This document shows, one piece after another, positions 2,965 to 17,020 of a stretch of 47,393 bases of DNA. The DNA is from Frankiales bacterium. GTDB taxonomy: Bacteria; Actinomycetota; Actinomycetes; Mycobacteriales; SCTD01. Every line of letters starts with the position of its first letter. Position 1 is the stretch's first letter. The stretch lies in assembly GCA_025965475.1 (NCBI GenBank), contig JAOPWV010000119.1:1-47393 (forward strand), written 5' to 3'. The notes under the pieces were generated by a model, which saw nothing but the letters and a program-made list of their open reading frames with translations, was not told the origin of the DNA and ran no database searches. A program made the position numbers and the translations under genes.

Positions 2965-4758
2965 GTGTGCTCGACTGCGGTCATGCCCGAGGAGATGACC
3001 GCGGCCGAGGCCGTCGCCCTCATCGACCCGGGTGACCGCGTGTTCGTCGGCTCCGCCTGCGCCACGCCCCGGGCCCTGCTCGACGCCCTCGACGCACGCC
3101 GTCCACCGGTTCCCGGCCTGCGGCTGGTGCACTTCCTCGCCGACGGCACCGGCACCCGCTACCCGCAGGAGGTCTTCTTCGTGGGCAGCGGCCTGCGCGG
3201 GCACGTCCGGGCCGGCCACATCGACTACGTGCCGCTGTCCTCGGCGGACCTGCCGGCGCTGATCGCGTCCGGCCAGCACCGGGTGGATGTCGCGCTCATC
3301 CAGGTCTCCCCGCCGGACGAACACGGCAACTGCAGCCTCGGGGTGTCCGTCGACGTCACCCGGGGTGCCGCACTGGCCGCGCACGTGGTGATCGCCGAGG
3401 TCAACCCGGCGATGCCACGCACCGGACCCGCGTCGGTCATCCCCTGGTCGTGGATCACGGCGTTCGTGCCGGTCCCCGCGATGGTGGCCGAGTACGTGCA
3501 CGAACCGGTCGGCGACGCGGCCGAGCGGATCGCGCCGTACGTCGCCCGGCTGGTCCCGGACGGCGCCACGCTGCAGATCGGCCTGGGCCGGGTGCCCAAC
3601 GAGATGCTGCGCCACCTCACCGGCCGGCGCGGTCTGCGCGTGCACTCCGACGTGGTCACCGACGGGCTGGTCGACCTGCTCGACGCCGGGGTCGTGCTCG
3701 ACGAGCCCGGCGCGATCGTGGCGTCGATGGCGGTCGGGACCAAGCGGCTGTTCGACCGGCTCGAGGACCCCGTCGTGGACTTCCGGCCGATCGAGCAGGT
3801 CTGCTCGTTCCAGGCGCTCACCTCGGTGCAGCGGCTGGTCTCGGTGACCCAGGCGTTCGCCGTCGACCTGACCGGCCAGGTGTGCGCCGACACCGACAGC
3901 GGGGAGCTGTACGGCGGCGTCGCCGCGCAGCCGGTGATGCACTACGCCGCATCACGGTCGCCGGGCGGACGGGCCGTCGTGTGCCTCGCGACGGAGTACC
4001 CGGACGGGTCGTCCCGGATCAAGGGGGCGCTCGCCTCCGACGAGGCGGTGGCGATCCCGCGGGCCGACGTGCACTACGTGACCACGGAGTACGGCACCGC
4101 GTACCTGTTCGGCCGGTCGCTGCGGGACCGGGCGATCGCGCTCATCGAGGTGGCCCACCCGCGGCACCGCGCGGACCTGCTGACCGCGGCGGTGGCACGC
4201 GGCCTGGTGCCGGCCGGGCAGACGCTGCGCTCGCGGGGGGCCTATCCGGGCGGCGAGGAGCGGACGGTGACGCTCACGGACGGCTCGCCGGTGCTGCTGC
4301 GGCCGGCCCGGACCGGCGATGCCCCGGCACTGCAGGACCTCTTCTACCGAATGCCGCCCGAGGACGTGTACACCCGGTTCTTCCGTCACCTGACGACCCT
4401 GCCGATGTCGACCGCCGAGCACCTGACGAGCGTGTCGTTCGAGGACGAGGTGACGTTCCTCGCTGTGATCGGCGACTGGGGCACCGAGCAGATCGTCGGC
4501 ACCGCGTCGTACTACCTGGACCGGGTCACCGGCACCGCGGACGTGGCGTACATGGTCGACCCGGACTGGAAGGGCAAGGGACTGGGCGCCGCCCTGCAGC
4601 AGCGGCTGGTGTCCTACGCCCGGTCCCGCGGCGTGCGGACCCTCACGGCCGACGTGCTGATGGACAACGTCCGGATGCTGCGGCTGTTCCGGTCGAGCGG
4701 GCTACCGCTCACCACCCACACGCTGCAGGGCGTGACCGAGGTCGTGCTGACGCTGTAG
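2965..4758 (+). CDS. Acetyl-CoA hydrolase/CoA-transferase fused to a GNAT acetyltransferase
   Basis: Residues about 10-435 match the acetyl-CoA hydrolase/transferase (4-hydroxybutyrate CoA-transferase-like) family: an N-terminal Rossmann-like half with HVVIAEVNPAMPRT, and a C-terminal half with the characteristic TTEYGTAYLFG and EVAHPRHRADLL. Residues about 440-597 form a GNAT domain, with ADVAYMVDP and the acetyl-CoA pyrophosphate loop DWKGKGLGAALQQRL. The protein therefore joins thioester transfer to an acetyltransferase, a fusion known in actinobacteria. GGAGG at 2957-2961 is only 3 nt from the GTG at 2965. The ATG at 2983 is an alternative start, but then the spacing would be long. Expected to be cytosolic and to act in acetate or short-chain acyl-CoA metabolism; the GNAT target is unknown. 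Confidence 0.88.
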   Translation: MCSTAVMPEEMTAAEAVALIDPGDRVFVGSACATPRALLDALDARRPPVPGLRLVHFLADGTGTRYPQEVFFVGSGLRGHVRAGHIDYVPLSSADLPALIASGQHRVDVALIQVSPPDEHGNCSLGVSVDVTRGAALAAHVVIAEVNPAMPRTGPASVIPWSWITAFVPVPAMVAEYVHEPVGDAAERIAPYVARLVPDGATLQIGLGRVPNEMLRHLTGRRGLRVHSDVVTDGLVDLLDAGVVLDEPGAIVASMAVGTKRLFDRLEDPVVDFRPIEQVCSFQALTSVQRLVSVTQAFAVDLTGQVCADTDSGELYGGVAAQPVMHYAASRSPGGRAVVCLATEYPDGSSRIKGALASDEAVAIPRADVHYVTTEYGTAYLFGRSLRDRAIALIEVAHPRHRADLLTAAVARGLVPAGQTLRSRGAYPGGEERTVTLTDGSPVLLRPARTGDAPALQDLFYRMPPEDVYTRFFRHLTTLPMSTAEHLTSVSFEDEVTFLAVIGDWGTEQIVGTASYYLDRVTGTADVAYMVDPDWKGKGLGAALQQRLVSYARSRGVRTLTADVLMDNVRMLRLFRSSGLPLTTHTLQGVTEVVLTL

Positions 4759-5859: not shown

Positions 5860-6252
5860 TCAGGCCGCCACGGGGAGCAGCAGCTGCTGGCCGGCCCGCA
5901 GGCCCGCCTGCTCGAGGTGGTTGATCCGGCGGATCTGGTCGATGACCTCGCGCGGGTCGTTGTCCGGCGCGATCCGCAGGGCGACCGACCACAGGGTGTC
6001 CCCCGGCTGCACGGTCGTCTGGGTCAGCGCGGGCCCGGCCTGGGCGGTGCCGGCGGCGTGGCTGGCCGTCCGGCCCACCGAGAACCCGACGACGAGCAGC
6101 GCGACGGCGACCAGGAGCAGCACGAGCCGGCCGCGACGCGTCAGCCGCACCGGGCCACGGCCGGCGGCGGTCACGGGGGCGACCGGCGCGCCGAACGCAC
6201 CGAAGGGAGCAGCGATCGTCGTACCCGTGGCGGTGATGGTCATCGCGGTCAT
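5860..6252 (-). CDS. Small membrane-anchored LysM protein divergent from lexA (ChiZ/Rv2719c-like position)
   Basis: The 130-residue protein has a cytoplasmic N-terminus, one transmembrane helix at about residues 42-60 after the basic LTRRGR, a short linker, and one C-terminal LysM domain (about 79-127, from [15 protein letters not shown] to [10 protein letters not shown]) that should bind peptidoglycan outside the membrane. The ATG has AGGAG 6 nt upstream. The gene is divergent from lexA, and the shared intergenic DNA carries LexA boxes at 6282-6297 and 6351-6366. In mycobacteria the same position is held by the damage-induced LysM protein ChiZ/Rv2719c, and in Corynebacterium by the SOS division inhibitor DivS. 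By analogy this is a candidate SOS-induced cell-wall or division modulator; that role is inferred. Confidence 0.85.
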
Positions 6253-6281
6253 GTCTGGCTCCTCGTACTCGTACGGCCCGG

Positions 6282-6297
6282 TCGAACGGCTGTTCGA
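6282..6297. promoter_or_regulatory. LexA (SOS) box, LysM-proximal
   Basis: TCGAAC-GGCT-GTTCGA is a perfect palindrome and an exact match to the actinobacterial SOS consensus TCGAAC-N4-GTTCGA. It lies 30 nt upstream of the LysM start codon, just downstream of a likely LysM promoter, and so is well placed to block it. Confidence 0.9.
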
Positions 6298-6314
6298 TCG
6301 AACGTCTGAGCGAT

Positions 6315-6337
6315 GTTGTACCCCATCGGGCCGACAA
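6315..6337 (-). promoter_or_regulatory. RecA-NDp/PafBC-like promoter element facing the LysM gene
   Basis: On the minus strand this reads TTGTCGGCC-N8-TACAAC. The mycobacterial LexA-independent damage promoter is TTGTCRGTG-N8-TANNNT, so 7 of 9 upstream positions match and only the last base of the -10 differs. The same 9-mer recurs in the opposite direction at 6369-6377. Confidence 0.5.
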
Positions 6338-6350
6338 AAACGAGACGCGA

Positions 6351-6366
6351 TCGAACATGTGTTTGA
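6351..6366. promoter_or_regulatory. LexA (SOS) box, lexA-proximal
   Basis: TCGAAC-ATGT-GTTTGA matches the actinobacterial LexA consensus with one substitution in the right arm. It sits directly upstream of the probable lexA promoter, consistent with autoregulation. Confidence 0.88.
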
Positions 6367-6368
6367 AC

Positions 6369-6391
6369 TTGTCGGCCGGAACAGTTACCTT
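6369..6391 (+). promoter_or_regulatory. RecA-NDp/PafBC-like promoter element for lexA
   Basis: TTGTCGGCC-N8-TACCTT matches TTGTCRGTG-N8-TANNNT at 7 of 9 upstream positions, with the exact 8-nt spacer and a full TANNNT. It ends about 52 nt before the lexA start codon. Confidence 0.55.
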
Positions 6392-6443
6392 TCGCCCGTC
6401 GATCGAGGGCCGTCACCGGCTCTTTTGCGAGGCGGGAGGCACC

Positions 6444-7187
6444 ATGGGCAGCGGGTCAGCACGCGGTACGGAGGGCTCCGCCGAGGCGGCTGACTCCGGG
6501 CGGAGCAACGTCCGTGACTTCCCGGACGGGCCGCCTGACGAGTCGGGCCTGACGCCTCGCCAGCGCAAGGTGCTCGAGGTCATCCGCGAGTCCGTCGAGC
6601 GGCGCGGCTACCCGCCCACCGTCCGGGAGATCGGCGAGGCCGTCGGCCTGACCAGCACCAGCAGCGTGTCGCACCAGCTGATGACGCTGCAGAAGAAGGG
6701 CTTCCTGCGCCGCGACCCGTCGCGCCCGCGCGCCGTCGACGTGCGGAGCCCGAGCGATGCGGCGGCCGCCGAGACGGCCCACGACGAGGCAGCCGAACGG
6801 GCCGCCCACCCGCAGCCGGCGTACGTCCCGGTTGTCGGACGCATCGCTGCCGGTGGGCCGATCCTGGCCGAGCAGGCCGTGGAGGAGGTCTTCCCGCTCC
6901 CCCGTGAGCTGGTCGGCAGCGGGACGCTCTTCCTGCTCAAGGTGGTCGGCGACTCGATGATCGACGCCGCCATCGCCGACGGCGACTGGGTCGTCGTGCG
7001 CCAGCAGCCGAACGCCGACAACGGCGACATCGTCGCCGCCATGATCGACGGCGAGGCCACGGTGAAGACCTACAAGCGCCGCGACGGGCACGTGTGGCTC
7101 ATGCCGCACAACCCGGCGTACGCGCCGATCCCTGGCGACGAGGCCGTCATCCTCGGCCGGGTCGTCACGGTGCTGCGCAAACTCTGA
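6444..7187 (+). CDS. lexA: LexA, SOS response repressor
   Basis: This is the transcriptional repressor of the SOS regulon, inactivated by RecA-stimulated self-cleavage. Counting from the ATG at 6444 (247 residues), it has an N-terminal winged helix ([20 protein letters not shown] and the recognition helix near [10 protein letters not shown]), a variable Ala/Glu-rich hinge, and the S24 peptidase-like domain. The cleavage bond is Ala136-Gly137 in GRIAAGGPI, the nucleophile Ser171 in VGDSMID, and the general base Lys208 in EATVKTYKR. The frame is open back to an ATG at 6357, but that codon lies inside the LexA box. The start at 6444 has GGGAGG just upstream. An Asp/Ser-rich 34-residue extension precedes the winged helix, as in several actinobacteria. 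Confidence 0.97.
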
Positions 7188-16928: not shown

Positions 16929-16951
16929 ACGTTAGGAGCGCCCTGCGACAG
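16929..16951 (-). promoter_or_regulatory. RecA-NDp/PafBC-like promoter of recA
   Basis: On the minus strand CTGTCGCAG-N8-TAACGT matches 6 of 9 positions of TTGTCRGTG, has the exact 8-nt spacer, and has a complete TANNNT. It ends about 58 nt before the recA ATG, comparable to the LexA-independent mycobacterial recA promoter. Confidence 0.45.
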
Positions 16952-17004
16952 GAACGGCCTGTCGGGAACACCCTGTGGACACCCGGACAGGACGAGACGC
17001 TAGA

Positions 17005-17020
17005 CCGAACACCTGTTCGA
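17005..17020. promoter_or_regulatory. LexA box upstream of recA
   Basis: CCGAAC-ACCT-GTTCGA matches the SOS consensus TCGAAC-N4-GTTCGA at all positions but the first. A TAGCGT hexamer (16997-17002 on the minus strand) follows immediately and can serve as the -10 of the LexA-controlled promoter. Confidence 0.88.

Follow-up and report, generated by a model that had tools for sequence, protein, structure and literature searches.

A probable bidirectional SOS control region between lexA and a divergent LysM gene, with a PafBC-type LysM promoter, in a Frankiales bacterium

Our goal was to understand which DNA damage signals act on lexA, and on a LysM gene transcribed away from it, in a Frankiales bacterium. 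A preliminary description of the region had proposed that LexA-dependent and LexA-independent signals converge on both genes, through two LexA boxes and two inverted PafBC-like promoters. The region is part of a 47,393 nucleotide stretch of DNA, referred to here as the window. The sequence was read directly, and all coordinates in that description proved correct. The LysM gene starts at position 6252, on the minus strand, and lexA starts at position 6444, on the plus strand. Hence, the two are divergent. From left to right, the intervening DNA holds LexA box 1, LexA box 2, the minus strand sequence TTGTCGG-N10-TACAAC (6337-6315), LexA box 3, and the plus strand sequence TTGTCGG-N10-TACCTT (6369-6391). 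The genes and LexA boxes are as follows.

5860 to 6252, minus strand: LysM gene, an open reading frame of 130 amino acids encoding a hydrophobic segment and a C-terminal LysM domain
6282 to 6297, unstranded: LexA box 1, TCGAACGGCTGTTCGA, perfect, at a position conserved in relatives
6298 to 6313, unstranded: LexA box 2, degenerate (core CGAACGTCTGAGCG, 6299-6312, 2 mismatches), overlying the predicted LysM transcription start
6351 to 6366, unstranded: LexA box 3, TCGAACATGTGTTTGA, near-perfect, with its GTTTGA half serving as the predicted lexA -35 element
6444 to 7187, plus strand: lexA, 247 amino acids, matching TIGR00498 (1.5e-75), with Peptidase_S24 and LexA DNA-binding domains

The LysM gene product matches the Pfam LysM model (2.7e-8) and, below the model cut-off, the NCBIfam YneA model (8.5e-11). 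Viral relatives of the protein were sought and none were found. Rv2719c (ChiZ), DivS and YneA suppress division and are induced by damage, and DivS is reported to have no significant homology to YneA (PMC3989709). By analogy with these proteins, we infer that the LysM gene encodes a division suppressor of the ChiZ/DivS/YneA type. Among relative loci with enough flanking sequence, 94 of 97 have a divergent LysM gene next to lexA. Elsewhere in the window, an open reading frame of 597 residues (2965-4758, plus strand) resembles, on visual inspection of its translation, an acetyl-CoA hydrolase/transferase with a GNAT-like acetyltransferase domain fused at its C-terminus.

The LexA boxes are more than chance. 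Thus, CGAACNNNNGTTYG has five strand matches, at three places in the window, where 0.12 are expected. The two boxes already described are real, and the view that LexA boxes serve both genes is supported; the third, degenerate, box (6298-6313) had been missed. Its position is conserved in relatives, where the match is often better. Box 3 keeps the form CGAACNNNNGTTTG in nearly all relatives. Note that box 3 departs from the palindrome, with GTTTG in place of GTTCG, and therefore provides the TTGA of the lexA -35 element.

The PafBC-like elements are two copies of TTGTCGGCC in opposite orientation. The inverted 9-mer, as such, is not beyond chance; 11% of Markov-simulated regions of 191 bp have a 9-bp inverted repeat somewhere (P about 0.11). 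Since such repeats are not rare, and the window holds six copies of TTGTCGGCC, it is conservation, rather than the repeat, that carries the argument. The pattern TGTCRG-N10-TA is found exactly twice in the 47 kb, both times in the lexA-LysM region. With 0.59 matches expected, and 11% of shuffles reaching this result, the coincidence is only suggestive.

The element facing the LysM gene consists of two parts.

6329 to 6337, minus strand: PafBC-type -26 element TTGTCGGCC, with the core TGTCGG at 6336-6331
6315 to 6320, minus strand: predicted LysM -10 element, TACAAC, separated from TTGTCGGCC by 8 nucleotides

Conservation was measured in a comparison set of 80 named loci plus about 70 more drawn from the genomes of 121 relatives, anchored on box 3. 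Removal of near duplicates left 120 actinobacterial lexA upstream regions. An exact minus strand TGTCRG-N10-TA is present in 76 of the 120, and in 94 if up to one mismatch is allowed. Control patterns with other spacers gave 0-2 exact matches, and those with other dinucleotides 0-7. The motif accompanies 82 of the 94 divergent LysM genes; in the other 12 relatives the LysM gene lacks it. Hence, when the lexA upstream region is aligned across relatives, as the preliminary description had suggested, the LysM-side element is strongly conserved. At the level of sequence, the minus strand element gives the LysM gene a conserved promoter of the PafBC type. In a separate observation, the element mostly lies either 14-18 or 24-28 nucleotides from box 3 in the 120 regions, mainly at 15-16 or 25-27. 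These distances differ by about one helical turn, and few intermediate distances occur.

Single-stranded DNA is the activator of PafBC. In the initiation complex, PafBC is inserted between sigma domain 4 and promoter DNA, and PafB recognises the -26 motif (PMC11804915). Promoters that depend on PafBC, called RecA-NDp, combine a TGTCRG core, 10 nucleotides from the -10 element, with TANNNT as the -10 sequence. The LysM side has the core and the spacing. However, TACAAC departs from TANNNT at the last base, and relatives, which usually have TAGACA or TACAAC, depart alike. Hence, we call the promoter PafBC-type, and not a proven member of the class. Of the earlier claim that a TANNNT-like hexamer follows each 9-mer at 8 nucleotides, the spacing holds on both sides, and the hexamer holds for TACCTT but not for TACAAC. 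Aside from its poor -10 element, the LysM promoter has no good -35 element.

The genome encodes pafB-pafC, the absence of which would have spoken against the earlier account. On another contig of the same assembly (C41) there are two tandem WYL-WCX proteins, with tatC downstream, and the second matches the PafC HTH model (1.2e-39). This order resembles pafB-pafC-tatA-tatC of M. tuberculosis. PafC scores above cut-off in 118 of the 121 relatives. A test for joint loss of PafC and the motif was uninformative, because PafC is nearly universal. Genome scans gave a mixed picture. The exact published consensus, TTGTCRGTG-N8-TANNNT, which had been put forward as a search pattern, has no match in the whole genome. 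With 2 mismatches, the same consensus has 128 matches and is too unspecific. A strict 7-mer pattern shows no excess in the organism's own genome (3 matches versus 4 in the control); in 31 relatives it has 138 matches, versus 34 for the reversed control.

Three further observations concern the motif elsewhere. In the same window, recA pairs a LexA box with a PafBC-like promoter, like the two-promoter recA of mycobacteria.

16930 to 17020, minus strand: recA upstream region, with a perfect LexA box (17019-17006) and, downstream, the PafBC-like TGTCGC-N10-TAACGT

Another strict match in the genome, TTGTCGGAGGTGCCGCTTATCGT, lies directly 5' of a DUF222 gene (L085 1501-1523; G000:C148:3953-3975). 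The DUF222 family often carries HNH nucleases. By its upstream motif, the gene is a candidate for PafBC-type damage induction. Finally, repeated promoters resembling TTGTCAGTG-N8-TAGCCT occur in a genus with large genomes of 6-11 Mb (G137, G174, G297, G422 and others; f33 g66), which is probably Streptomyces. In a published search, S. venezuelae yielded no conserved PafBC motif, and the existence of a PafBC response in Streptomyces was left open (PMC9380542).

On the lexA side, the preliminary description had missed an ordinary promoter, TTGAAC-N17-TACCTT, that encloses the second 9-mer.

6363 to 6368, plus strand: predicted lexA -35 element, TTGAAC, overlapping box 3 and 17 nucleotides from the -10 element
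6369 to 6377, plus strand: PafBC-type -26 element TTGTCGGCC facing lexA, with the core TGTCGG at 6370-6375, inside the promoter spacer
6386 to 6391, plus strand: predicted lexA -10 element, TACCTT, which is also the -10 element of the lexA-side PafBC-type element, 8 nucleotides after TTGTCGGCC

Here, the TGTCRG core, the 10 nucleotide spacing and TANNNT are all present (TGTCGG-N10-TACCTT). The ordinary promoter is the rule; TTGANN followed by TANNNT occurs in 115 of the 120 regions, with a spacer of 17 (106 regions) or 18 nucleotides (9 regions). Conversely, TGTCRG at position -16 from the lexA -10 element is found in 5 of these 115 (the window, L008, L131, L137 and L142), and occurs at no other offset. 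Three congeners were sampled, and none has the full TGTCGG core at this position. Two retain TGTC, in TGTCGC (L005) and TGTCCT (L001), and the last has neither (L119). As to conservation of the 9-mers in relatives, named earlier as a check, the LysM-side core is conserved, and the lexA-side picture is mixed.

Shorter forms of the lexA-side element are more frequent. When the class-wide promoters listed were added, 197 distinct promoters with a 17 nucleotide spacer were available. Of these, 21 carry TGTC at -16, where column shuffling predicts 2.6 (8-fold), and no other 4-mer in the lexA spacer is as strongly enriched by position. Exact TGTCRG occurs 6 times, against 0.5 expected. Clustering by similarity leaves 11 of 136 (1.8 expected) or 5 of 83 (0.7 expected), with some relatedness remaining in both sets. 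Both elements were read directly in the window and in L008, L131, L189, L190, L191 and L219. Class-wide, the pattern of CGACA, box 3 and TGTC is present in 12 of 395 genomes, mostly from two families, within which several species have it; 2 of the 12 (G387 and G416) may be without a true minus strand element. A different word, TGTGACCT, is shared one base earlier in the lexA spacer of L004, L122, L127, L128, L157 and L173; it occurs in 7-8 lexA promoter spacers, where about 0.2 are expected.

Judged by these patterns, the mirrored layout recurs, in a minority of relatives. Since TGTC recurs at an exact position, and two further families have mirrored loci, the double arrangement is unlikely to be accidental; it is a minority variant in which PafBC action on lexA is putative. 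It had been put forward as new. That claim stands, because no published description was found, yet it applies only to this minority variant.

The remaining question is whether one or both genes respond to PafBC. We give somewhat better than an even chance to the LysM side alone being PafBC-dependent, with TTGTCGG in the lexA spacer due to chance or neutral, and lexA under LexA alone, as in M. tuberculosis. Transcript traces from that organism assign the PafBC motif to the rv2719c operon only, and not to lexA, in agreement with the direction of the motif (PMC8151990). The full motif is in just 5 of 115 lexA promoters, and absent from the congeners, while lexA already has a complete -35/-10 promoter. 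What speaks against neutrality is the 8-fold enrichment of TGTC at a single offset, which stays at 11 versus 1.8 after clustering, and the mirrored loci that several species of two further families have in common. Alternatively, with a chance that falls a little short of even, PafBC may also activate lexA through the second -26 element, in which case the LexA-independent response would increase the SOS repressor. This would fit the exact TGTCGG-N10-TACCTT placed on the sigma promoter's own -10 element, its reappearance in several families with the distance to the -10 element unchanged, and the loci where both elements were read directly. In addition, the two loci with 18 nucleotide spacers (L008 and L131) keep the distance between the element and the -10 sequence. 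The M. tuberculosis result, the rarity of the element and the lack of the full motif in congeners argue the other way. So does the outcome of an idea drawn from these two loci, that PafBC sites compensate for the non-optimal 18 nucleotide spacer; it was rejected, since no class-wide 18 nucleotide lexA-type match has TGTCRG at -16. As for the proposal that damage signals converge on both genes, the LysM half is upheld, and the lexA half is plausible but weaker, given the ordinary promoter in 115 of 120 regions, the scarcity of TGTCRG within it and the M. tuberculosis traces.

Two other readings concern the nature of the 9-mers. The conserved minus strand element might be read by another regulator, ClgR, instead of PafBC. 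For M. smegmatis, a report cited in PMC5656591 names ClgR as recognising this class of promoter. However, deletion of pafBC in M. smegmatis blocks P1-driven recA transcription (PMC5656591), and PafB itself contacts the -26 motif (PMC11804915). Hence, we regard a role for ClgR in place of PafBC as unlikely. It is less probable still, to the point of being very improbable, that the two copies of TTGTCGGCC act together as a palindromic operator or as an RNA hairpin. They do belong to a 12 nucleotide imperfect inverted repeat, with 31 nucleotides between the arms. However, both arms are upstream of both predicted transcription starts, and thus in neither mRNA; such repeats are common by chance, and the distance between arms varies among the other mirrored loci. 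We rejected this reading because only one arm is conserved.

The closest known counterpart is the Rv2719c/lexA region of M. tuberculosis, in which a single SOS box serves lexA, alongside three more SOS boxes and a PafBC motif (PMC8151990). As there, the present region has lexA divergent from a LysM gene for a likely division suppressor, SOS boxes on both sides, and a PafBC motif pointing towards the LysM gene. On the LysM side, two LexA boxes were found, compared with the three reported in M. tuberculosis. Furthermore, unlike M. tuberculosis, where the PafBC motif serves only rv2719c, a second PafBC-type element faces lexA. The evidence supports convergence of LexA and PafBC on the LysM gene, which is already known from the same design published for M. 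tuberculosis (PMC8151990). Mycobacterial RecA-NDp or P1 promoters, such as recA P1, share TTGTCGG at -26, 10 nucleotides to the -10 element, the presence of pafBC, and pairing with a LexA box at recA. Unlike them, both copies here have CC in place of TG at consensus positions 8-9, and the LysM-side -10 element has no final T. The C. glutamicum divS and B. subtilis yneA regions similarly encode an SOS-induced division suppressor near lexA (PMC3989709). In the texts consulted, no PafBC element is described for either, in contrast with the PafBC-type element here. Taken as a whole, it is very probable that the region provides bidirectional SOS control of lexA and a divergent LysM division suppressor, with an activated LysM promoter of the PafBC type; the binding, direction of regulation and transcription starts within this scheme are predictions.

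From the sequence parts, and mycobacterial work, regulation may proceed as follows. LexA at box 3 would cover the lexA -35 element, causing autorepression, and LexA at boxes 1 and 2 would cover the LysM transcription start, predicted at about 6308. On damage, cleavage of LexA would free both promoters. Single-stranded DNA would switch on PafBC, permitting RNA polymerase to use the LysM promoter via the -26 element TGTCGG. Because damage removes LexA and activates PafBC, the LysM gene would be both released and activated. The poor LysM -10 element would fit an activator-dependent promoter. In this organism, the additional -26 element within the lexA promoter might let PafBC boost lexA too, a step to which we give slightly less than an even chance.

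The LysM-side element is strongly conserved over many families, which is evidence for PafBC-type promoters operating well beyond mycobacteria. For lexA, we suggest, tentatively and with some doubt, that PafBC directly activates the gene in a minority of actinobacterial lineages, from a -26 element within the LexA-repressed promoter. If true, the LexA-independent response would raise the SOS repressor and speed SOS shut-off, and mirrored PafBC sites would drive the division brake and the repressor together. The two actinobacterial damage responses are generally described as running in parallel. With a PafBC site on lexA, one of them would control how much of the other's repressor is made.
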